Source: an uncultured Gammaproteobacteria bacterium (GTDB taxonomy: Bacteria; Pseudomonadota; Gammaproteobacteria; Arenicellales; JAANXG01). From it: a stretch of DNA of 39,399 nucleotides. The number at the start of each line of letters is the position of its first letter. Within the stretch, counting starts at the first letter, position 1. The DNA lies in contig CAMYIN010000105.1 of assembly GCA_947258495.1 (NCBI GenBank), forward strand, positions 1 to 39,399, in the 5' to 3' direction. The position numbers and the translations under genes are program-made. A model generated the notes under the pieces. The model saw only the letters and a list, made by a program, of their open reading frames with translations. It was not told the origin of the DNA and did not search any database. Positions 9,768-34,597 of this stretch are shown here, piece after piece.

Positions 9768-10227
9768 GGGTACGCTGTCGGCATTTCGCATCGCCCACGC
9801 CGACTATCCGATTTTCGATGGCGGTGGAGCGTACAAATACGGCAGCCGCTGGTGTACGCCGGGCCGCTACATCGTCCACACCGCATCCACCTATTCGCTC
9901 GCGGTGCTCGAAAACGTCGTCCACTGGCGCTTATCGGCGCTGCCCCCGAGCCAGCACTTCATCCGCATCACCATACCCGAGGCGGTCTCGCGCATCGCGC
10001 TGCGCGCCGACGAGCTATCCGGCTGGAGCGATTACCCCTACGGCCCCAGCCAGGAGTACGGCGACGATTGGTACGACCGGCGCGCCAGCGCGGTGCTCAT
10101 CGTGCCCTCGGTGGTGTCGCCCTTCGAACCCAACGTGCTGTTGAACCAGCGTCACGAGGAATTCAGGCGCATTAAGGCGACGGATCCGGCGCCGGCCGTC
10201 TTGGACGAACGCCTGTTCGTTCAATAA
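9736..10227 (+). CDS. RES-domain toxin
   Basis: A 163-aa RES-domain protein, the toxin of a Res-Xre pair. Characterised RES toxins degrade or consume NAD+. The sequence holds the family's conserved polar residues: the Arg in FRIAHADYP, then GAYKYGSRWCTPG, HTASTYSLAVLENVVHW with the conserved Glu, and DWYDRRASAVLIVPS near the end. The start is taken as TTG 9736 because AGGTGGAGGAG lies just upstream and the product begins beside the RES fold; an ATG at 9691 would add Arg-rich, unlikely residues. A degraded second copy lies at 14888-15175. Confidence 0.88.
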   Translation: MSARKPASPFKGTLSAFRIAHADYPIFDGGGAYKYGSRWCTPGRYIVHTASTYSLAVLENVVHWRLSALPPSQHFIRITIPEAVSRIALRADELSGWSDYPYGPSQEYGDDWYDRRASAVLIVPSVVSPFEPNVLLNQRHEEFRRIKATDPAPAVLDERLFVQ

Positions 10228-14887: not shown

Positions 14888-15175
14888 GGTACCCATATTT
14901 TCCACACCGCCTCCCCCTATTCGCTGGTGGTCCTCGAAAACGTCGTGCGGTGACGCTTGTCGGTGCTGCCCGCCGAGGAGATTCCCGGGTGGAGCGATTA
15001 CCCCTACGATCCCAGCCAAGAGTACGGCGACGATTGGTACGACCGGCGCGCCAGCGCGGTGTTCATCTTCCCCTCGGTAGTGTCACCTTTCGAATCCAAC
15101 GTATTTTTGAACCAGCGTCACGGGGAATTGTGGCGCATCACGGCGACGGATGCGGTGCCGGCCGTATTGATTGGT
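14888..15175 (+). pseudogene. degraded RES-domain toxin, second copy
   Basis: The frame reads like the toxin at 9736-10227: FHTASPYSLVVLENVV, then a TGA where the intact gene has TGG (VVHW), then RLSVLP. An in-frame loss of about 20 codons follows, then a well-conserved end (GWSDYPYDPSQEYGDDWYD, RRASAVFIFPSVVSPFE, FLNQRH). The first third, including the conserved Arg, is gone. The DNA is still very similar to the intact copy, so duplication was fairly recent. No antitoxin remnant was seen before it. Confidence 0.85.
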
Positions 15176-16974: not shown

Positions 16975-18474
16975 ATGCACGGTTTTATTGAGGACGGTGC
17001 TTGGGATAACCTGCTACGCGAGATTCGCAAGAAGCGCTGCACACCGATTGTAGGGCCCCGAGTCGCGGAACACTTACTCGGCTCTCGCGCCGAAATAGCG
17101 GAGCGATGGGCAGATACGTATAAATACCCTCTAGATCCTAAGGATCGAAGCAATCTACGGCAAGTCGCTCAGTACGTTGAAGTCAAAAGAAGACGACGCG
17201 TACTTATAGATGAGCTCGTTGACTATTTATGTCGAGCGTTGCAAGAACGATATGGTGATATTCTCTCGGAGGTACAGCGCGAGGCGGAACCTAGTGAGCA
17301 GCTGCTTAACGCACTTATTAATGAGGTCGTCATTAACAAACAAAAAAGGGATCCTTATGACCCACATCTCATACTGGCAGAGCTTAAGCAGAACATATAT
17401 GTAACGGCGGCCTTTGGTAATCTGCTCGGCAGCGCTTTCGCTCAGAGCAAAATAGATCATGTGGTCGAGGCGTGTAATTGGAAGCGAGAAAGGGAATTTC
17501 AGAGCGTGTTCGACACAGATCCAAATTACAATCCCGATGAAAATCGTCCCCTGGTGTACCATTTGTTTGGGCGCATAAACGAATGCGATTCTTTGGTACT
17601 AACAGAAGATGATTACTTTGATTTTTTGATCTCAGTCTGCACAGAGACCGAACTTATTCCCACCAAGGTCTGGAAAGCTCTAACTGACACGTCTTTGTTC
17701 TTTGTTGGATTTAGAATCACGGATTGGGAATTTCGCGTGTTGCTCCGGCTTATTTCCAGCAGAGAATCAAAAGAAAAACTGAAAGACTTCGAGCATGTTG
17801 CCGTACAAGTTGATCCTAGCGCAGATGACTTTAAAAGTCCTGAGACAGTTCGAGAGTATCTGGGTAATTATTTTGGCGAACAGCTTTATGCGGTCAACAT
17901 TTATTGGGGGGAAATCGGCGATTTCATGCGCGAACTCAAGGCTCATTTAGATCAACCGTCAATTATGCCGGCGAAAGCCGGAGACCGACCAACCGCGCCG
18001 ATCAAGTTAGAGCAGCCTATCGATCTTGTTTACTCGTACGCGCATGGCGATGAAGATTTGATAAACGAATTGGATAAGCACCTGAGCACTCTAAAAGAAA
18101 AGGGCTGGATCCGTACTTGGCATGATCGCAGCATCAGGGGGGGCGAAAAGTGGGAGCAAGAAATCAACGAGAACTTCGATAAGGCCAAGATCATTCTGTT
18201 ACTGGTAAGCGCGGATTTTTTGTCGTCGGACTTTATCAGAATAAAAGAACTACCCCGTGCAATGGAAAGACATGAGAAAAATGAAGCATGCGTGATCCCG
18301 GTCATCTTGCGTGAATGCGATTGGGAGGAACATATCATCGGTCAACTCGAGGCATTGCCCAAGAGCGGTACGGCGATAACCTCCTGGGCAAACCGAGATG
18401 AAGCGTTCAAGCAGGTGGCGGAAGGAATTCGAGAGGTTATCGAGCGAATGGCAAGAGAGGATCACGCCGTGTAA
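16975..18474 (+). CDS. SIR2-like domain / TIR domain fusion, candidate defence effector
   Basis: A 499-aa cytoplasmic protein. Residues about 1-320 resemble SIR2-like (SIR2_2) domains of defence proteins: CTPIVGPRVAEHLLG as the nucleotide loop, LVYHLFGRINECDSLVLT followed by DYFDFL, and SLFFVGFRITDWEFRVLL. Residues about 349-465 form a TIR domain (IDLVYSYAHGDEDLINEL; WIRTWHDRSIRGG; IILLLVSADFLSSDF; CVIPVILRECDW). TIR domains of this kind cleave NAD+ or make cyclic signals; the likely catalytic Glu is E425 in IKELPRAMERHE. The SIR2 catalytic Asn and His positions look substituted (VTAAFGN; HLFG). AAGGA at 16963 sets the start. It precedes the STAND gene by 116 bp. Confidence 0.82.
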   Translation: MHGFIEDGAWDNLLREIRKKRCTPIVGPRVAEHLLGSRAEIAERWADTYKYPLDPKDRSNLRQVAQYVEVKRRRRVLIDELVDYLCRALQERYGDILSEVQREAEPSEQLLNALINEVVINKQKRDPYDPHLILAELKQNIYVTAAFGNLLGSAFAQSKIDHVVEACNWKREREFQSVFDTDPNYNPDENRPLVYHLFGRINECDSLVLTEDDYFDFLISVCTETELIPTKVWKALTDTSLFFVGFRITDWEFRVLLRLISSRESKEKLKDFEHVAVQVDPSADDFKSPETVREYLGNYFGEQLYAVNIYWGEIGDFMRELKAHLDQPSIMPAKAGDRPTAPIKLEQPIDLVYSYAHGDEDLINELDKHLSTLKEKGWIRTWHDRSIRGGEKWEQEINENFDKAKIILLLVSADFLSSDFIRIKELPRAMERHEKNEACVIPVILRECDWEEHIIGQLEALPKSGTAITSWANRDEAFKQVAEGIREVIERMAREDHAV

Positions 18475-18590: not shown

Positions 18591-21218
18591 ATGCCGGATA
18601 GAACAGACACGCCTTACGTTGGGCCTCGAGCGTTTGTGCCGGGCGAGATACTTTACGGGCGAGACCCTGATGCCCGGGCATTGCTCGATCTGTTGATTGC
18701 AAATCGGATAGTGGTGCTTTATTCCCCTTCCGGTGCCGGCAAGACGTCCTTACTTCAGGCAAAGCTTGTTCCGACTCTCGAGGACGAGGAAAATCTCTCG
18801 GTCCTGCCCATTATGCGGGTGACGCATCCGAAGGCATTTCTCGAGGACCCGCGCAAATACAATCGGTATCTGTTCAGCGCATTATTGCATCTCGACTTGG
18901 ATTCGAATGATGGCCTTGGTGTACCTGATGAAGATCTAGCTCAATGGACGATGTCTGCTTATATGAAGCGGCGCGTGCCTGAATCAGAAAATACGGTGAT
19001 GATCTTCGATCAATTTGAAGAGATTCTGACCCGGGATCCTACAGACACGGATGACAAGCGAGAATTTTTTGAGCAAGTCGGCGAAACCTTACGTAACCAC
19101 CATCTTTGGGCAGTGTTCTCACTCCGAGAAGAATACCTGGGCGGATTCAAACCGTATCATGATGCCATACCGACGCGTTTCAGAAACACATTTCGTCTTA
19201 ACTTTCTTGAAAAGGGTGCTGCATTGGAGGCAATCCAGCGACCGGCGCGTGACTTCGGTGTAGATTTCGTCGATGCTGCTGCGCAGGCACTCGTCGATGA
19301 TCTGCGCTTGGTGCAGGTTTCTCGTCCTGACGGAGCACCCGAAACAAAGCTTGGACCCACGGTAGAGCCGGTCCAGATTCAAGTTGTCTGTCGCAATATA
19401 TGGGAGACTCCGCGATCCGATCATAACAAGATCACTATCGACGATTTCAAGGCTGTGAGTGTAGATAAGGCCTTGGCAGCTTACTACGCAAACGCCGTCA
19501 AAAGTGTCGCAGATGCGCACAAAGTAGAAGAGCGGTTTGTTCGGGAATGGGTCGATGAAAATCTCATTTCGGAGCGTGGAATCCGACTGCCGGTATTACA
19601 AGAACCGAACACGAGCAGGGGTCTGGATAACGACGTTATATCGGCATTGATTAACGAGTACGTCGTTCGGGAAGAAACACGTCACGGCGCTACGTGGTAT
19701 GAACTCACCCATGATCGAATGATCGAACCCATCCAAACTAACAATATCGCGTGGAAAGAAAGTAAATTGGCGCCATTTCAACGACAAGCGCAGGCATGGC
19801 AGCGGTCCGACCGTCCCGATCAACTATTATTGCGTGGAGGCGCGCTCAAAAGCGCTAACGCGGTTAAATCGAACTACACGCTTACTAAAACGGAGGAGAA
19901 ATTTCTGATATCGAGCGATGTGCAACAGAAGAAAAGGAGATTGCACAGCGCATTAGTATTTGGTTCCCCAGGAGTTGTGTTATTTGTGTCGGGATTTCTG
20001 TGGTATTCGTCGGAACAGGATAAATTCGAAACGGAGCAAGAAACTAAAGTGAAGTACGAGTTCATCCTACAGCAGGAGGCTTTGCATCAAACCGCCGGAA
20101 TGTTGATGCTTTCAAGCGAAGATGACGTCTCGACGGTGGGTTTCGATTCCACCAGCGGACGGTTGGTAACGGGCGGCAAGACTGGGCAGGTTAGAGTTTG
20201 GGATGTCACTGATCGAGCAAGGCCAAACTTCAGCATGACTAGTGAAGTGCCTGTTGACTATCAATGGACTTTGAGCGGCGACGTATACGAACTTGCATTT
20301 GCTCCGAGGAGCAATCGGGTAATAGCTGTTGTACGCGACAAAGATCGCAATAGTGCTGTCAAACTCTTTTCTGATATCACTAATCGAGACGTGGAACCCA
20401 GAAATCTGGTTTCCCTGGAGGGCGACGTCCTTTCGCTATCATTCAGTCCCGATGGCCGTTGGTTGGCTACCGCGACGAATACGGGTTCTGTCGTTCACCT
20501 CCACGATACTTCTGATCCGACCACCGAGCCTAGTCTTGTGGAAGAGACGGCTGTTGTCGAGACGCTTGCTTTCAGCCCCGATGGACGCTGGTTGGCGACG
20601 GCGACAGGTACCGGTTCTGTTGTACATCTCCGCGACATGTCCGATCTGACTGGGAAGGCGACTGTGGTGCAAGAAAAAGGTATTGTAAGGTCCTTGGCCT
20701 TCAGCCCCGATGGCCGTTGGCTGGCTACGGCGACGGACGCGGAGGATTTTTTCAATCTCCACGACATGTCCGATCCAACCGTGAAACCGGCAGTTGTGCA
20801 CCGGAAAGGCGTTATCACGTCCTTGGCTTTCAGTCCCGATGGTTGTTTTCTGGCCACAGCTATTCAAGATATACCAAGCAACGATAGTTCCATCAGTCTC
20901 TACAAAATGGGTTATCGTTCCGACTCGTCATCCGGGAAATGTGTCTCTTCCGGGACCGTTCCCTCATCAGATCCAATCTTTTCGCAGCGCGTGGCGACTA
21001 CAAGAATAACAACGACAGTCTTCAGTCCCGATGGGCGTTGGTTGGCGGCGATGATACCGGGTGAACATCGCGTCAAATTATGGAAAACGAACGATATGAA
21101 TCTTGAAAGTGGGCCCAATCTTTCGGGTAGTGGAGAGATTGAAGGATTGGCCTTCAGTTTTGACGGTAAAATGCTCGCGATTGCACAAGGGGGTGTACGC
21201 CTTTTCGTGCTGAAGTAG
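18591..21218 (+). CDS. nSTAND-type NTPase with transmembrane segment and WD40 repeats
   Basis: An 875-aa protein. It opens with YVGPRAFVPGEILYGRD, the entry to nSTAND1 domains. Walker A is SPSGAGKTSLL (about residue 44), Walker B VMIFDQFEEIL (about 136), and SLREEYLGGF follows as in STAND NTPases. A winged-helix-like part (WYELTHDRMIEPI) comes next, then one hydrophobic segment near 455-475 (VFGSPGVVLFVSGFLWY). The last ~370 residues are WD40 blades with FSPDGRWLATAT repeated; four begin exactly 129 nt apart (20442, 20571, 20700, 20829). STAND proteins switch by ATP-driven oligomerisation when the repeats sense a trigger. With the upstream SIR2-TIR gene it likely forms a sensor-effector pair (inference). 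Confidence 0.88.
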   Translation: MPDRTDTPYVGPRAFVPGEILYGRDPDARALLDLLIANRIVVLYSPSGAGKTSLLQAKLVPTLEDEENLSVLPIMRVTHPKAFLEDPRKYNRYLFSALLHLDLDSNDGLGVPDEDLAQWTMSAYMKRRVPESENTVMIFDQFEEILTRDPTDTDDKREFFEQVGETLRNHHLWAVFSLREEYLGGFKPYHDAIPTRFRNTFRLNFLEKGAALEAIQRPARDFGVDFVDAAAQALVDDLRLVQVSRPDGAPETKLGPTVEPVQIQVVCRNIWETPRSDHNKITIDDFKAVSVDKALAAYYANAVKSVADAHKVEERFVREWVDENLISERGIRLPVLQEPNTSRGLDNDVISALINEYVVREETRHGATWYELTHDRMIEPIQTNNIAWKESKLAPFQRQAQAWQRSDRPDQLLLRGGALKSANAVKSNYTLTKTEEKFLISSDVQQKKRRLHSALVFGSPGVVLFVSGFLWYSSEQDKFETEQETKVKYEFILQQEALHQTAGMLMLSSEDDVSTVGFDSTSGRLVTGGKTGQVRVWDVTDRARPNFSMTSEVPVDYQWTLSGDVYELAFAPRSNRVIAVVRDKDRNSAVKLFSDITNRDVEPRNLVSLEGDVLSLSFSPDGRWLATATNTGSVVHLHDTSDPTTEPSLVEETAVVETLAFSPDGRWLATATGTGSVVHLRDMSDLTGKATVVQEKGIVRSLAFSPDGRWLATATDAEDFFNLHDMSDPTVKPAVVHRKGVITSLAFSPDGCFLATAIQDIPSNDSSISLYKMGYRSDSSSGKCVSSGTVPSSDPIFSQRVATTRITTTVFSPDGRWLAAMIPGEHRVKLWKTNDMNLESGPNLSGSGEIEGLAFSFDGKMLAIAQGGVRLFVLK
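20442..20957 (+). repeat. 129-bp tandem WD40-coding repeats
   Basis: Four units within the STAND gene begin with TTCAG(T/C)CCCGATGG at 20442, 20571, 20700 and 20829, an exact 129-nt (43-aa) period with high DNA identity in the first ~40 bases. A fifth, out-of-period copy begins at 21021. This points to recent unit amplification. Confidence 0.8.
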
Positions 21219-21724: not shown

Positions 21725-21787
21725 GGGGGACAGATATATTTTCAGGATTGCGACGGGGTAATGGATGAGGTAATGGGACAGATTTTT
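21725..21787. repeat. GGGGACAG-type repeat, two half sites
   Basis: GGGGGACAGATATATTTT near 21725 and GGGACAGATTTTTC near 21775 are two direct, slightly changed half sites of the dispersed repeat. They lead directly into the multi-hairpin element. Confidence 0.5.
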
Positions 21788-21959
21788 CGCGGAACAAAAC
21801 CCCGTGCGTGAGCATGGGGATGGACGCGATGCCCGCACGGTATCGTGCGGGCCACGGATGAGGTCGGATGCGGCTCTGCCGACAGACGGCCGAGTCCAGT
21901 GTATCCCGGCGTAGCCGGGATGATTCCCCGCGCATGAGCGCGGGGAGATTCAATTTTCA
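21788..21959. repeat. multi-hairpin element, copy A
   Basis: A 172-bp element made of four stem-loops: CCCCGTGC-GTGA-GCATGGGG (about 21800-21819), GCCCGCACG-GTAT-CGTGCGGGC (21831-21852), ATCCCGGC-GTA-GCCGGGAT (21903-21921) and CCCCGCGC-ATGA-GCGCGGGG (21926-21945). An inverted copy lies at 34410-34580. Both borders (CGCGGAAC and CAATTTTC) are shared. Confidence 0.85.
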
Positions 21960-21994
21960 AGAAACGAACCTATCCACTTTTCGCCTTATCGCTA

Positions 21995-27574: not shown

Positions 27575-30268
27575 GTGCACCACGTTCGACCATCGGTAAT
27601 ACGCCACACCTTTCTCGTTACCGGCGTCCTGGCGCGGCGCGAGGCGCTGTACGAAGCGGTGCGCAGCAGTGCGCACGGACGGCAGATCCTGGGCCCCGCG
27701 CAGCTCGCCGCGCGCCTGGCGGGCGGGTTCGCACAACCCATAGATCGCGACGCGCTCCTCGACGCCGTCGATCGGTGTCTCACCGACGCCACGCTGGACA
27801 TCGGCGATCTGGCAGCGATTCGCGACCTTCCCGGCAGCGTGCGCGCCGCCGCACAGACACTGTCGCGGGTGTGGAACGCGGGCATCGATCTGGCGGTGCG
27901 CGCGGGGAAAGCGGACTCGCCGAGGCTGGCCGAACTCGCCAGGCTGGAGGCGGCGGTCCTGCAACACCTGCCCGCGGCGCAGTTTCGCCCGCAGGATCTC
28001 GCGCACCGCGCCCTCGATCGGCGGCAGCTGGCCCCGCGTCTGCTCGGAGCCGTCACCCTGGCCGGAATGCCGGACCTCGATCCCGTATGGCGGCCATTGC
28101 TCAGGGCGCTCGGTGAGGTCGTGCCGATGACCTGGCGATTGGGACACTTTCGCCGGCCCGCTTGGGTGGACGGCGACTCGATCGAGTTCGACGATGCGGC
28201 GGCCAACACACCCGAACTGTTGCGGGTGTCCTGCGCCAACCCGCGGCACGAGGCCCTCGAGGCGCTGCGCTGGGCGCGTGCGCTCATCGCGAGCGGCGCC
28301 GCGCGTCCCGAGGAGATCGCGATCGCGGCGCCGGCCAACGCCGAATGGGACGAACATATCGCGGCCATGGCCGACGACGCAAACCTGCCGCTCGCGTTCG
28401 TCCACGGGCGCCCGGCACTGAACACCCCGGACGGTCAGACCTGCGCTGCGTTGGCGGAGGTGTTGCTGAACGGCCTGAGTCGCTCGCGCGTGGAACGTGT
28501 TTTAACGTCGATCCGCGGCGCCACCGACGCGACGCGGGGCATTCCCGGTAACTGGCAGCGCATCCTCCCGCGCGACGCACCCTTGTTGCACGCGCAGCAG
28601 TGGCGCGGGGTGATCGAGGGCACGACCGAATGGCCCGAAGGACGGAATTTCGGCGCCACCCTGGAAGCGCTCATCGACCTGCTCGATCGCGGCGCCGAGG
28701 CCGCGTCCGAGGCCGGGGAACGCCTGCTGGCCGGGCGCGCGCGCGCCGTCTGGCGCAAGGCGTTGAAAGAAGGACCGGCGCGGGCCCTTGCGGTGTCCTT
28801 GGCCGGCGTTCGGGTCGAAGAACAAGCGGATCCCGTGACCTCGATCGTGTGGTGCGCGGCCGCCGAGGTCGCGTCCTGTCCCAGACCCTACGTCCGTCTG
28901 CTTGGTCTCACCAGCCGGGGTTGGCCGCGCACGCAAAGCGAGGACCCGCTGCTGCCGGCGCACATCGTCGATCCTGGGGAACTCGATCCGGTTCCGGTGC
29001 CGGAGCGCGATCGGCGCGACTTCCGCACTGCCGCGGCGGCGTCCTCGCGGCAGGTCGTGCTGTCCCGTTTCCGACGCGACGCCGAAGGCAGGCAAGCGGG
29101 GGAGAGTGCGCTGCTGCGCGAGCTGCGCGTGGAGCGCGGCGAGGGCTACCTGCGCCGCGAGCGCATACCGGAACACGCGGCGAGCGAAGCCGACCGCCTG
29201 CTCGCCAGGCCCGACGAATTTGCCGCCGACCCCGTCGCCACCCACGCGGTACGCTGCTGGAAGAACTGGCACACGCCCAAACTCACGCCCCACGACGGCC
29301 GCATCCGGGCGCAGCATCCGATACTGGTTCGCATACTGCAGGAACGGTTCTCGGCGACGCGCTTGCGTCGTCTGGTGCGTGACCCGCTGGGCTTCGTCTG
29401 GCGCTACGGCTTGCATTGGCAGGCGCCGGCGGAAGACGAAGAGCCCCTGGGGCTCGATAGTGCGGCGTTCGGCAGCCTTACCCATCGGGTCCTGGAACTG
29501 GCCGTGAACGCCTTGGAGGCCGCGGGAGGTCTGGCCGACGCCGACGCCGCGCAGATCGCGGCCGCTACCGTGGCCGCCGTCGACCGGGCCGCCGACGAGT
29601 ACGAACGGACGCAACCGGTACCGCCGCGCCTGCTGTGGCGGCGCACGCTCACCGAGGTCCGGGATCTGGCACGGACCGCGCTCGCCTGGGACGATGCGCC
29701 CCTGCCGGGGCAGCGGAGTTTTGCCGAGATCGAATTCGGATACGTCGAGGCGACGGCGAGAAGCGGCTGGCCGTGGGACCCCGGGGCCGCGGTGGAGATT
29801 CCGGGAACGGGACTATTGATCAGCGGCACCATCGATCGCCTGGATCTGTCGGCGGACGGCGCCGTCGCGCGCGTGACCGACTACAAGACCGGCAAGGTGC
29901 CCGGAAACAACGTGCAGGTGAACGGGGGCGAGGAATTACAGCGCTGCCTGTATGCCTTTGCCGTGCAGGCGTTGCTCGGAACGGGCGTCGCGGTGGCGGC
30001 GCGGCTGCTGTATGCGCGCGACGGCGGCCGATTGCTCGACCTTGCCGATCCACAGAAGGTCCTCGATGACGTCGCGCATTACTTCGTCGCCGCGCGCGAT
30101 CACCTGCGCGTGGGGCGCGCGCTGGTGGGGCCGGACAGCGGTCGGCGCGACGACGATCCGCTCACTTTTGCGCTACCGGGCAACGCCAAGGAAAACTATT
30201 TGGTAACCAAGGCGGCTGAGGCCCAGTCCGCGATGGCTCCGCTGCCGGAACTGTGGGAGATGCCGTGA
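27575..30268 (+). CDS. AddB-like PD-(D/E)XK nuclease / inactive-helicase subunit
   Basis: An 897-aa partner of an AddA-like helicase in double-strand-break processing. The N-terminal part is helicase-like but lacks a Walker A lysine motif (FLVTGVLARREALYEAV), as in several AddB-type proteins outside Firmicutes. The C-terminal nuclease is clear: LVRDPLGFVWRYGL, FGSLTHRVLELAV, FAEIEFGYV, GTIDRLDLSADG, then VTDYKTGKVPGNN with the catalytic D and K, and EELQRCLYAFAVQ with the QxxxY-like motif. It starts at GTG 27575, immediately after the degenerate repeat array, and overlaps the helicase gene by GTGA. Confidence 0.87.
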   Translation: MHHVRPSVIRHTFLVTGVLARREALYEAVRSSAHGRQILGPAQLAARLAGGFAQPIDRDALLDAVDRCLTDATLDIGDLAAIRDLPGSVRAAAQTLSRVWNAGIDLAVRAGKADSPRLAELARLEAAVLQHLPAAQFRPQDLAHRALDRRQLAPRLLGAVTLAGMPDLDPVWRPLLRALGEVVPMTWRLGHFRRPAWVDGDSIEFDDAAANTPELLRVSCANPRHEALEALRWARALIASGAARPEEIAIAAPANAEWDEHIAAMADDANLPLAFVHGRPALNTPDGQTCAALAEVLLNGLSRSRVERVLTSIRGATDATRGIPGNWQRILPRDAPLLHAQQWRGVIEGTTEWPEGRNFGATLEALIDLLDRGAEAASEAGERLLAGRARAVWRKALKEGPARALAVSLAGVRVEEQADPVTSIVWCAAAEVASCPRPYVRLLGLTSRGWPRTQSEDPLLPAHIVDPGELDPVPVPERDRRDFRTAAAASSRQVVLSRFRRDAEGRQAGESALLRELRVERGEGYLRRERIPEHAASEADRLLARPDEFAADPVATHAVRCWKNWHTPKLTPHDGRIRAQHPILVRILQERFSATRLRRLVRDPLGFVWRYGLHWQAPAEDEEPLGLDSAAFGSLTHRVLELAVNALEAAGGLADADAAQIAAATVAAVDRAADEYERTQPVPPRLLWRRTLTEVRDLARTALAWDDAPLPGQRSFAEIEFGYVEATARSGWPWDPGAAVEIPGTGLLISGTIDRLDLSADGAVARVTDYKTGKVPGNNVQVNGGEELQRCLYAFAVQALLGTGVAVAARLLYARDGGRLLDLADPQKVLDDVAHYFVAARDHLRVGRALVGPDSGRRDDDPLTFALPGNAKENYLVTKAAEAQSAMAPLPELWEMP

Positions 30269-33200
30269 CGGAACTTCCCGACGCCGCGGCGCGCCGGCGC
30301 GCTTTATGCGATCACGACGCCACCCTGCTGGTGGAAGCGGGCGCCGGTTCGGGAAAGACGGCCGTCATGGCCGGTCGCGCGGTATTACTGCTGGCGAAGG
30401 GTGAGCATCCCGGTCACATCGCCGCAATTACCTTCACCGAGCTCGCCGCGGGACAGCTTTTCACCACCATCTGCGAATACCTCGACACGCTGCTTGCGGG
30501 GGAGCTCCCGGTCGGGCTGGATCTGGCGCTGGCGGACGGTTTGAACGACGGCGAACGCCGCAATCTGGCCGCGGCGCGGCAATCCATCGCCGAGCTCACC
30601 GCCACCACCATCCACGGCTTCTGTCAGCAGTTGATCCGGCCCTACCCGGTCGAAGCCGGGCTCGACCCGGGGGCGAAGATCATGGACGAGTCCGAGGCCG
30701 TGCTCGCCTGGCAGGACATCGTCAACGATTTTCTGCGACGGCGCCTCGAGGTCGAGACCGACGACACCGCGCTGGCCGCCTACGTGGTCGCGGCCGGCCC
30801 CGCCGCGCCGCAGCGCATCGAAACGCTGGCGACGTTTCTGCGCCGCTACCGAAGCGCGCGCGCGGCGCCGGTGGACTACGAGGCAAAGGCCCTGCATGCG
30901 CTGGAGACCGCGGTCGATCGGTTCGTGTCCTGGGTGGACGACCGCGAGTACGAAGAGGAGACCACCTCCGCGCTCGCCGGGTCGTTGCGCAAGCTCGCCG
31001 GGCGATACAGCGAGAATTTGGTCAACGGTTGCCGCGATCCCCGCGTGTTGATGGCTTTGGCCCTCGACCCGCCGCAGTGCGTCGCCCACACCAAAGGCAT
31101 GACCTGGCGTTCGTGGAATCGAAAAGGCAAGTGGCAGGACGCCGCCGCCGCCGCGGGCCGGTCGAGGGCCGAAGGGGCCCGGCTGTCGGACGAGGGCACG
31201 GCGCTGTACCAAGACGTGGGTGCGGCGTGGATTCGCCTCCAGGGAATGCTCGACGCCGCGGCTTTCCGGTTGTTGGCCGACGACGTGCAGGAACTGTTGG
31301 AAGACTACGCGCGCTACAAGCGCGATGCGGCGCTGATCGATTTCGACGACTTGTTGCACCACGCCCGCCGCCTGCTGCGTGATCACGATGCGGTGCGCGA
31401 CGCCCTCGCGGAGCGCTACCGGCGCGTGCTGGTGGACGAGTTTCAGGATACCGATCCGTTGCAGGTGGAGATACTCTGGCGTCTGTGCGGCGAGGGTGCG
31501 CGCGACGCCGACTGGCGGCAACGCGCGCTGCGGCCGGGGGCGTTGTTCTGCGTGGGGGACCCGAAGCAGGCCATTTATCGCTTCCGCGGCGCGGACGTAG
31601 ACACCTATGTGGCCGCGCGCGAGGCCATCGCGGGTCAGTTCCCGGACAACGTCCTGGAGATCACCGCGAACTTCCGCTCGCTGGCGCCGATACTGGAATG
31701 GGTCAACGACCGCTTCGCGCAGCCCTTGAACGCGGCGGGACAGCCGGGATTTCAGAGTCTGTCGCCGACGAAATACGCGGTCGACGACGCGCCCGGTGTG
31801 GCGCGCGTGGAGGTCGATGTGGACGCCGACGGTAGTTCGCACGACGACGTCCGCGAAGCGGAGGCCGCGGCGGTGGCGGCGCTGTGCCGTCGGTTGATCG
31901 GGAGCCATCGCCTGCAGGCTCGATGCGGCGAAGACGCTAGCGTGCGCGCCGGCGACATCGCCCTGCTGGCGCCCACGGGCACGCAGCTGTGGCGTTACGA
32001 ACGCGCCCTCGAGCACCTCGACATCCCGGTGGCGACGCAGGCGGGGAAGGGCTTTTTTCGGCGCCAGGAGATTCAGGACCTGATTGCCGTCACCCGCGCC
32101 CTGGCGGATGCCCGCGACACGGTCGCGCTGGGGGCGTTGCTGCGCGGGCCGCTGGTGGGACTCACCGAAGAGGAACTCCTCGATATCGTCGCCGCGCTGC
32201 CGCGGCCGCACGGCACCGAGCGCATGCCGCGGTTGAGCATGCGCACCGATCCGGGCGACGTCGACCACGCGCCCGCGGCCCACACCCTCGCGGTATTGCG
32301 GGGCCTGGCGGCACAGGCGCACAAGACCGCGCCGTTTCCGCTGCTGGCCGCGGCGGTGGAAGAACTGCGTGTGCGTCCCATCTTGACCCGGCGCCATCCG
32401 GGCAGCGCCGAACGGGCGTTGGCAAACGTAGATCTGTTTCTGGAAATGGCCCGTCCCTACGCAGCGCGAGGTTTACGCGCCTTCGCCGTGGCCATGCGCA
32501 AGAAATGGGAGGATGCCGAGTCGCAGGTCGAAGGGCGCCCCGACGCCGAAGAACAGGCGGTCCACCTCATCACCATGCACTCGGCCAAGGGCCTGCAATG
32601 GCCCATCGTCATTCCGGTGAATACGGTCACGGCGCAGAAAGCAGTGTCGGGATTCGTGCACCGGCGCTCCAGCGACGAGATCTTTTATAAACTCGGTCCG
32701 GTGCCGCATGCGAGCTATACCCATATGCTGGAGGAAGAAAAGGCGCATCGACTGCGGGAACAGGTGCGCCTGCTCTACGTCGCCTGCACCCGCGCCGAGG
32801 AGTTGTTGCTCCTGCCGCGGTTGCCGACGGGTAAGTCCGCGTGGCTGGAAGCGGTCGAGCTGGAACTCGACGCGCTGCCGGTGTTCGATGGCAGCAGGTT
32901 GGAGGAAACGCTCCCGAAGCGTGCGCCGGACGGTGTCAACACCCAGGAGGTGCACGCGTTTGCGCGCGAAGCGGAAGCTATGCGTGCGGCGAAGTCGGTG
33001 ATCGAATGGCGACGACCCAGTCGCCACGAGCTTGCGGACCCCGAGGTCGAGGCGCGAGAGTCGGCGACACAGGTGTTCGCGGCGGCGGACGAAGTGCGGC
33101 CGGCGGTAGAGGGGGGGACAATGCGCGGCAACCTGCTTCACAAACTCGTGGAGGAAGTGCTGAGCGGAGAATCGGAAGCGGACGCCGCCGCCCTCGAGGC

Positions 33201-33603
33201 GCGTGCGCTGGAGTTGCTTTATCAAGTCGGAGCAACGCCCGCGGCCGATCCGGCGACCGGCGCCGCGCCCGAGGAACTGGCGCGGACCGTGATGCGAACA
33301 CTGGAACTGCCGCAGGTGCGCGCCTTGCGCGATCGTTTGCAACCCGAGCTTCCGCTCTACGCCTGTACCGCGGGAGAGGCAGGTGTCGAGGTCGCCACCT
33401 CCGGCATTGCCGACGCCGTCGCCCTCGATCCGTGCGGCAGCATCGAGGTGATCGTCGATTGGAAAAGCGACGTGGCCCCGTCCGCAGCGCAGCGCCAACG
33501 TTACCGCGCGCAGGTCCGCGACTACCTAAGCGCGACCGGCGCCGCCAAGGGAATCATCGTCTACATGACGCTCGGCCAGGTCGACGAAATCGAAGACGAT
33601 TAA
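30265..33603 (+). CDS. AddA-like UvrD/Rep helicase-nuclease
   Basis: A 1112-aa SF1A helicase with a RecB-type nuclease domain. Motif I is EAGAGSGKTAVMAGR, motif II VLVDEFQDTDPLQ, motif III FCVGDPKQAIYRFRGAD, motif IV EITANFRSL, motif V LITMHSAKGLQWPIVI, motif VI RLLYVACTRAEELLLLP. The C-terminal end has RGNLLHKLVEEVL, SGIADAVALD and IVDWKSDVAP, the nuclease D and DxK, followed by YRAQVRDYLSA. With the AddB-like protein it should unwind and trim DNA ends for RecA, and also degrade foreign linear DNA. GTG 30265 overlaps the previous stop (GTGA), with GGAG at 30256. Confidence 0.92.
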   Translation: MTELPDAAARRRALCDHDATLLVEAGAGSGKTAVMAGRAVLLLAKGEHPGHIAAITFTELAAGQLFTTICEYLDTLLAGELPVGLDLALADGLNDGERRNLAAARQSIAELTATTIHGFCQQLIRPYPVEAGLDPGAKIMDESEAVLAWQDIVNDFLRRRLEVETDDTALAAYVVAAGPAAPQRIETLATFLRRYRSARAAPVDYEAKALHALETAVDRFVSWVDDREYEEETTSALAGSLRKLAGRYSENLVNGCRDPRVLMALALDPPQCVAHTKGMTWRSWNRKGKWQDAAAAAGRSRAEGARLSDEGTALYQDVGAAWIRLQGMLDAAAFRLLADDVQELLEDYARYKRDAALIDFDDLLHHARRLLRDHDAVRDALAERYRRVLVDEFQDTDPLQVEILWRLCGEGARDADWRQRALRPGALFCVGDPKQAIYRFRGADVDTYVAAREAIAGQFPDNVLEITANFRSLAPILEWVNDRFAQPLNAAGQPGFQSLSPTKYAVDDAPGVARVEVDVDADGSSHDDVREAEAAAVAALCRRLIGSHRLQARCGEDASVRAGDIALLAPTGTQLWRYERALEHLDIPVATQAGKGFFRRQEIQDLIAVTRALADARDTVALGALLRGPLVGLTEEELLDIVAALPRPHGTERMPRLSMRTDPGDVDHAPAAHTLAVLRGLAAQAHKTAPFPLLAAAVEELRVRPILTRRHPGSAERALANVDLFLEMARPYAARGLRAFAVAMRKKWEDAESQVEGRPDAEEQAVHLITMHSAKGLQWPIVIPVNTVTAQKAVSGFVHRRSSDEIFYKLGPVPHASYTHMLEEEKAHRLREQVRLLYVACTRAEELLLLPRLPTGKSAWLEAVELELDALPVFDGSRLEETLPKRAPDGVNTQEVHAFAREAEAMRAAKSVIEWRRPSRHELADPEVEARESATQVFAAADEVRPAVEGGTMRGNLLHKLVEEVLSGESEADAAALEARALELLYQVGATPAADPATGAAPEELARTVMRTLELPQVRALRDRLQPELPLYACTAGEAGVEVATSGIADAVALDPCGSIEVIVDWKSDVAPSAAQRQRYRAQVRDYLSATGAAKGIIVYMTLGQVDEIEDD

Positions 33604-34382: not shown

Positions 34383-34409
34383 CCACACAACGGGTCTATT
34401 TTTAGACTC

Positions 34410-34580
34410 GAAAATTGAATCTCTCCGCGCTTACGCGCGCGGAATCATCCCGGCGTTGCCGGGATACACTGGGCTCGGCCGGCCGTCGGGAAAGCCGCGT
34501 CCGGCCTCGTCCGTGGCCCGCACGATACCGTGCGGGCATCGCGTCCATCCCCGTGCTCACGCACGGGGTTTAGTTCCGCG
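34410..34580. repeat. multi-hairpin element, copy B (inverted)
   Basis: A reverse-orientation copy of the element at 21788-21959. Hairpins: ATCCCGGC-GTT-GCCGGGAT (34447-34465), GCCCGCACG-ATAC-CGTGCGGGC (34516-34537), CCCCGTGC-TCAC-GCACGGGG (34549-34568), and a less regular first stem (about 34424-34442). It is bounded by GAAAATTGAAT and GTTCCGCG and flanked by GGGTCTATTTTT and ATAAATCCGTCC, repeat-family traces. It ends just past the histidine kinase stop. Confidence 0.85.
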
Positions 34581-34597
34581 ATAAATCCGTCCGCTTT

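Follow-up and report, generated by a model that had tools for sequence, protein, structure and literature searches.

Palindrome-associated transposable elements (PATEs) have been described in archaea, in some cyanobacteria, and in Salmonella (PMC4853749). The PATEs of Haloquadratum walsbyi, as far as their published account goes (Dyall-Smith 2011, PMC3119063), are too short to encode a transposase, carry mutually similar palindromes near their ends, have a short target oligonucleotide on the left, and show neither terminal inverted repeats nor target duplication. Their palindromes are invaded by other mobile elements, and in haloarchaea deletion of the core between the similar end palindromes yields a 52-bp terminal-only form (PMC3119063). 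In IS608, the model IS200/IS605 element, insertion occurs 3' of TTAC, which is kept on the left, the right end is TCAA, and the guide tetranucleotides AAAG and GAAT are located 5' of the end hairpins (PMC5934647). A PATE-like sequence of Halanaerobium hydrogeniformans combines the left-end hairpin and the right end of an IS605 element without a transposase (PMC7290912). REPs and BIMEs are dispersed hairpins presumed to be mobilized by Y1 transposases; GTAG and CGTC are the defining tags of REPs (PMC3733652).

The element described here occurs twice, in opposite orientations, in a 39,399-nt contig of an uncultured gammaproteobacterium of the order Arenicellales (CAMYIN010000105.1, assembly GCA_947258495.1); this whole stretch of DNA is referred to as the window. 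The host genome (G000) is a 3.18-Mb draft that is 74% complete. With a probability of roughly 0.82, the element represents a nonautonomous PATE, a transposase-less IS200/IS605 derivative moved in trans by a Y1 IS200-type TnpA. Its borders and insertion sites are read from the sequences themselves, and from these we infer the enzyme and the movement. The relevant features of the window are the following:

21783..21786, + strand: TTTT, a variant of TTTA, target tetranucleotide left of copy 1 (flank tally, sequence)
21787..21953, + strand: element copy 1, 167 bp, TCGCGG...GATTCAA (flank tally of 64 left and 47 right ends, joined flanks)
21796..21799, + strand: AAAA immediately 5' of H1, putative left guide (sequence; compare AAAG in the IS608 layout, PMC5934647)
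21800..21819, + strand: H1, left subterminal hairpin CCCCGTGC/GCATGGGG (fold, pair count for helix 2)
21831..21852, + strand: H2, core hairpin GCCCGCACG/CGTGCGGGC (fold, pair count)
21853..21901, + strand: H3, long and irregular core hairpin (fold, pair count)
21904..21920, + strand: H4, core hairpin TCCCGGC/GCCGGGA (fold, pair count)
21922..21925, + strand: GATT immediately 5' of H5, putative right guide (sequence; compare GAAT in the IS608 layout, PMC5934647)
21926..21945, + strand: H5, right subterminal hairpin CCCCGCGC/GCGCGGGG, resembling H1 in sequence and terminator-like with a T-rich tail (fold, pair count)
21950..21953, + strand: TCAA at the right border, the same letters as in the IS608 right cleavage site (flank tally; PMC5934647)
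34415..34581, - strand: element copy 2, 167 bp (BLAST, inverted-arm comparison, joined flanks)
34423..34442, - strand: H5 of copy 2 (offset from copy 1, both being 167 bp; fold)
34549..34568, - strand: H1 of copy 2 (offset from copy 1, both being 167 bp; fold)
34582..34585, - strand: TTTA, target tetranucleotide left of copy 2 (sequence, joined flanks)
10239, 21726, 22774, 25317, 26113, and 33628, + strand, and 22801 and 26711, - strand: GGGGACAGATTTATTTTC-like repeats

Self-comparison of the window revealed inverted arms at 21776-21961 and 34407-34592 with 89% complementarity, and the two copies are 90% identical by BLAST, which confirms the two inverted copies with shared ends reported in a preliminary description made from the window sequence alone. 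That description envisaged a 172-bp element of four hairpins; the structured block stands, but refinement of the borders from many copies gives a length of 167 bp (21787-21953 on the + strand and 34415-34581 on the - strand) and the fold consists of five hairpins, namely, H1 (enclosed by an outer CGCG/CGCG stem), H2, H3 (which is irregular), H4, and H5. H1 (CCCCGTGC GTGA GCAYGGGG), which starts 13 nt inside the left end, and H5 (CCCCGCGC ATGA GCGCGGGG), which stops 8 nt inside the right end, are alike in sequence. The RNA folding z-score of copy 1 relative to shuffled sequences is -7.55, and the two strands of copy 2 score -6.38 and -6.64; in each case, 0 of 200 shuffles folded as well.

The borders were examined next; a profile search of 135 loci returned 76 distinct hits. 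In the 64 left flanks, positions -4 to -1 before TCGCGG are T in 59, T in 56, T in 56, and A in 51, with nothing conserved farther out. Exact TTTA is found in 41 of these flanks, compared to a background of 676 of the 386214 positions (0.18%) in the same loci, and the other 23 differ from it. Among the 47 right ends, TCAA is nearly fixed and the adjacent T is present in 38, so that the right end reads TTCAA. With TTTA kept on the left and TTCAA on the right, the unit is the 167 bp between TTTA and the base past TTCAA. Its ends, TCGCGG and ATTCAA, are not inverted, i.e., terminal inverted repeats are absent.

When the flanks of the window copies are joined, those of both copies match GGGGACAGATTTATTTTC at 16 of 18 positions, best on the equal-offset diagonal; single flanks match at just 6 to 9 positions, and the best of 1000 shuffles reached 14. 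No target duplication was found at these two copies, with the exact cut ambiguous by about one base. Each copy thus landed in a GGGGACAGATTTATTTTC-like repeat, 3' of the TTTA of that repeat, and, apart from that one-base ambiguity, the insertion neither added nor removed a base. This explains the GGGGACAG traces beside both copies. The repeat traces mentioned in the preliminary description are real neighbors: when up to 3 mismatches are allowed, GGGGACAGATTTATTTTC is matched 8 times in the window, where 0.00 matches are expected. The GGGGACAGATTTATTTTC-like repeats are probably the terminal inverted repeats of a RAYT-like (TIRYT) element: they fit the GGGGWSAS motif described in terminal inverted repeats at RAYT-like genes (PMC3733652), and in one host locus (L063) they are found on both sides of an intact Y1 gene. 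At the solo locus L044 of genome G001, the orthologous region of G003 is too diverged for reading the junction.

Several other features of the window deserve mention. Upstream of copy 1, on the + strand, there is a gene with SIR2-like and TIR domains (16975-18474), followed by one for an nSTAND1 NTPase with WD40 repeats (18591-21218); these look like immunity or signaling genes. A 205-nt direct repeat (9999-10203 and 14965-15169, 87% identity) is preceded by a further matching stretch of 71 nt (at 9875 and 14901). A PD-(D/E)XK nuclease gene adjoins a UvrD-type helicase gene at 27575-33603 (+), a pair that resembles a two-subunit repair nuclease.

The element features compared match the published description of PATEs. 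As in H. walsbyi (PMC3119063), the unit is too short for a transposase and has no gene of its own, its near-end palindromes resemble each other, terminal inverted repeats are absent, a short oligonucleotide is kept on the left (TTTA, exact in 41 of 64 cases), there is no duplication (at the two window copies), core-deleted forms exist, and a palindrome is apparently invaded by another mobile element. In addition, the end palindromes are related to those of an IS200/IS605 element, at both ends in locus L065 and at the right end in L060 (see below). The present element differs from the H. walsbyi PATEs, as these are described in that source, in belonging to Gammaproteobacteria, in its sizes (167 bp and 41-42 bp), in its TTTA/TTCAA borders, in the three extra core hairpins, and in the invader of the end hairpin, apparently a group II intron instead of a small mobile repeat. 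Like IS608 (PMC5934647), its insertion is 3' of a tetranucleotide that stays on the left, and it has TCAA on the right and short stretches 5' of each end hairpin, but these are TTTA rather than TTAC and AAAA/GATT rather than AAAG/GAAT, and it carries neither tnpA nor tnpB. The H. hydrogeniformans sequence, which likewise lacks a transposase, is reported as a single copy of ~271 nt that retains part of tnpB (PMC7290912). Searches of the open-access literature (subscription papers fall outside it) brought up no report of this element family, which appears to be new to that literature.

The PATE reading is supported by dispersed copies at unrelated sites that form one fixed unit with exact ends, by conserved short stretches that precede each end hairpin on its 5' side, and by derivatives without the core between two similar end hairpins. 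Mechanistically, a Y1 (HUH) IS200-type TnpA supplied in trans would bind H1 and H5 on one strand, excise that single strand, and reinsert it 3' of TTTA, with AAAA and GATT serving as guides like AAAG and GAAT in IS608. It is by analogy that TTTA, TCAA, AAAA, and GATT can be proposed as cleavage sites and guides. Two suggestions of the preliminary description are supported: the nonautonomous mobile element and, as a class of mechanism, mobilization by a Y1 transposase elsewhere in the genome.

The two window copies are far from the only ones, contrary to what the preliminary description named as a ground for refutation, as the host genome yielded at least 51 element matches (with 40 of 54 candidates scored and some matches being short pieces of one copy). 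By class, G000 has 28 near-complete (full) copies, 3 solo forms, 4 left pieces, and 3 right pieces; G003 has 14 full copies and 2 pieces of each end; G001 has 1 full copy, 5 solos, and 2 left pieces; G002 has 2 full copies and 2 solos; G004 has 2 full copies; and G005 has 1 (these classes leave out 4 secondary opposite-strand hits and one weak hit in G007). The element is present in all five other species of the genus examined (G001 to G005). Among the first 60 relatives, including the host, matches came from 7 genomes: all six members of the genus and, with one weak 38-nt match, G007. The left hairpin was found in 6 of the 13 genomes of the family and the solo-type pattern in 5 of the 109 genomes of the order, every one of them from the host genus. 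With up to 3 mismatches, the left end was detected in 1 of 369 genomes of the class, the host itself, and in 0 of the 368 others, a pattern that distant relatives could escape. A scan of the named genome collection revealed one more carrier, the distant Gammaproteobacteria bacterium RBG_16_51_14 (G109), whose 15 pattern matches comprise 3 full copies and 12 solos. In two of its three full copies (L157:1344-1534 and L158:1346-1534), H1 and the closing CGCG stem are separated by an additional hairpin of ~22 nt. Elsewhere, two copies in the same orientation lie ~350 bp apart (L021:1505-1671 and 2025-2170). Phage and plasmid sequences gave no element match, and viral contigs gave none by pattern.

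The solo unit of 41-42 nt retains the left end, has a single hairpin, and finishes with a GATTCAA-type right end. Exact TTTA precedes 9 of the 10 solos of the host (3), G001 (5), and G002 (2), and solos are located at separate, mostly TTTA-type sites. They outnumber full copies in G001 (5 to 1) and G109 (12 to 3). Some solos of G109 join an H1-like arm to an H5-like arm, and at the fusion in all five G001 solos, the 3' arm has remained H1-type, as if they were derived from one founder. Further deletions, of single hairpins, were observed at L023, L024, L079, and L129. A solo would arise by deletion between H1 and H5 and might afterwards move alone. That the solo form is itself mobile, spreading with one hairpin as both ends, is a tentative idea that is somewhat less probable than its opposite; the alternative is that solos were made in place, site by site, by core deletion of full copies.

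Y1 genes were sought as the source of the enzyme, giving 18 rows in the genus genomes and 8 in G109 (L076, which overlaps L073, was left out). The preliminary description had proposed looking for such a gene flanked by the ends of the element; within the pattern thresholds, none of the 25 Y1 loci scanned has them. Flanks were aligned for three IS200-type loci, L065, L060, and L064, while L059, cut at a contig end, stayed outside the comparison. In L065 (genome G005), the left end gives a 40-nt ungapped alignment to the element, which 1 of 2000 shuffles and 2 of 2000 random hairpins score as well, and the right hairpin matches an H5 variant with a GTAA loop at 16 of 16 positions (controls, 0/2000); against the consensus H5, the controls are 11/2000 and 34/2000. 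The GTAA-loop variant occurs naturally, at L002, L005, L010, and L058. The host locus L060 is an N-terminally truncated relative whose right hairpin matches this variant at 18 of 18 positions (0/2000; 2/2000 and 11/2000 for the consensus H5) and whose left end is absent. By flank alignment, the ends of L064 do not match the element. The L065 TnpA belongs to NF033573 (NCBIfam, IS200/IS605 family transposase), with 90.9 bits against a cutoff of 55. The right tail of this IS200, TATCTATG, differs from that of the element, AGATTCAA, so L065 can be considered a candidate helper and not the parent copy. A BLAST search of the L065 insertion sequence against plasmids found no match, so its borders are not fixed. 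No IS200-type tnpA was found in the incomplete drafts of G001, G002, and G003, although G003 is rich in copies. Given the resemblance of the end hairpins to H1 and H5, the likeliest enzyme source would be the IS200 that is whole in G005 and truncated in the host.

The preliminary description also considered a REP/BIME-type unit spread by a RAYT (TnpA_REP). The hairpins and their dispersal are as expected for such a unit, and G109 and every one of the six genus genomes have RAYT-type Y1 genes, but the 41-42-nt solo has no GTAG or CGTC tag on either strand, the element is, at 167 bp with a TTTA target, longer than the 20-40-bp REPs described in PMC3733652, and its ends were not seen at RAYT genes, as the local ones are flanked by unrelated GGGG-type repeats of their own and 0 of the 25 Y1 loci carried the element's ends in the pattern scan. 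Origin as a REP or BIME is therefore unlikely. A miniature inverted-repeat element (MITE) of a DDE transposon would similarly be short, dispersed, and devoid of genes; however, the noninverted ends TCGCGG and ATTCAA and the lack of target duplication at the two window copies make it the least credible of the alternatives.

Another possibility, a duplicated functional structured RNA (an sRNA or guide scaffold), draws on the strong folding, on the core hairpins retained in G109, and on covariation. The latter is slight when only close copies are compared (2 of 40 pairs in 38 copies) and becomes moderate with distant ones included: in 13 sequences, 9 of 55 pairs show two-sided changes (16 cells; mean of the shuffles, 7.0), a number that falls to 5 or fewer when the partners are slid. 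Clear exchanges occur in H5, such as CCCTGTGC/GCACAGGG in G109. These changes fit a need for hairpins, either as single-stranded DNA or as RNA, and nothing in them singles out RNA. No Rfam family was matched at the gathering score; the one weak match cited in its favor, of copy 1 to sot0042 (25 bits against a cutoff of 88), as well as those to BTH_s1 and HgcC at relaxed scores, is absent from nine other copy loci (L033, L034, L035, L036, L040, L047, L058, L010, and L020), so that subthreshold matches differ between copies. Moreover, solos dispense with the entire core, the copies vary like decaying insertions, and there is no promoter-like site near copy 1. A TnpB guide (omega) RNA was rejected, with TnpB (PF07282) in 0 of the 6 genus genomes, compared to 6 of 14 control genomes, and no Rfam match at the gathering score; IscB (PF14239) was found in 0 of the 6 genus genomes and, likewise, in none of the control genomes. 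Since the pairing is explained by the need for DNA end hairpins, the RNA reading put forward in the preliminary description is not supported and seems very improbable.

At the landing sites, a terminator-like hairpin (stem of at least 8) is found directly upstream in 13 of 64 element flanks. Among intergenic TTTA controls, 4 of 74 have one (p 0.0095), and the figure for all controls is 35 of 548. Insertion sites differ between species. Orthologues of the sensor-kinase gene beside copy 2 are present in G001, G003, and G005, with no element match at those loci. In tblastn searches with element-masked flanks, only 2 of the 37 G000 loci (L004 and L017) share a close neighbor gene, at high identity, with an element locus of another genome; two further locus pairs are distant paralogues (L009/L048 at 25% and L011/L128 at 38%). 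In the L004 and L017 pairs, the element keeps its side and direction relative to the gene, though not its distance, which makes common descent of these two possible. A few insertions may thus be old and inherited.

At L010:1-109, L020:1663-1771, and L119:1140-1197, the element breaks off after GGGGAGAT of H5 and runs into GTGTGCCGGGCATG...; the contig start of L011 is perhaps a fourth case. This sequence is a group II intron 5' end: 42 plasmid records contain matches to L010:1-107, and the one inspected has ltrA downstream. All the H5-intron junctions are located at contig ends. The right hairpin seems to be a homing site of this intron.

The current analysis adds a high-copy PATE family in Gammaproteobacteria, in which one genome set shows the TTTA target, the left and right borders, an IS200 that is a candidate helper, and a single-hairpin form without the core. 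It also accounts for three odd neighbors of the element: the GGGGACAG traces, which mark where it landed; the terminator-like hairpins that directly precede TTTA; and the group II introns found within the right hairpin. This family offers a clean test case for the minimal DNA required by a Y1 single-strand transposase, and the solo form, if indeed mobile alone, would be among the smallest transposing DNA units.
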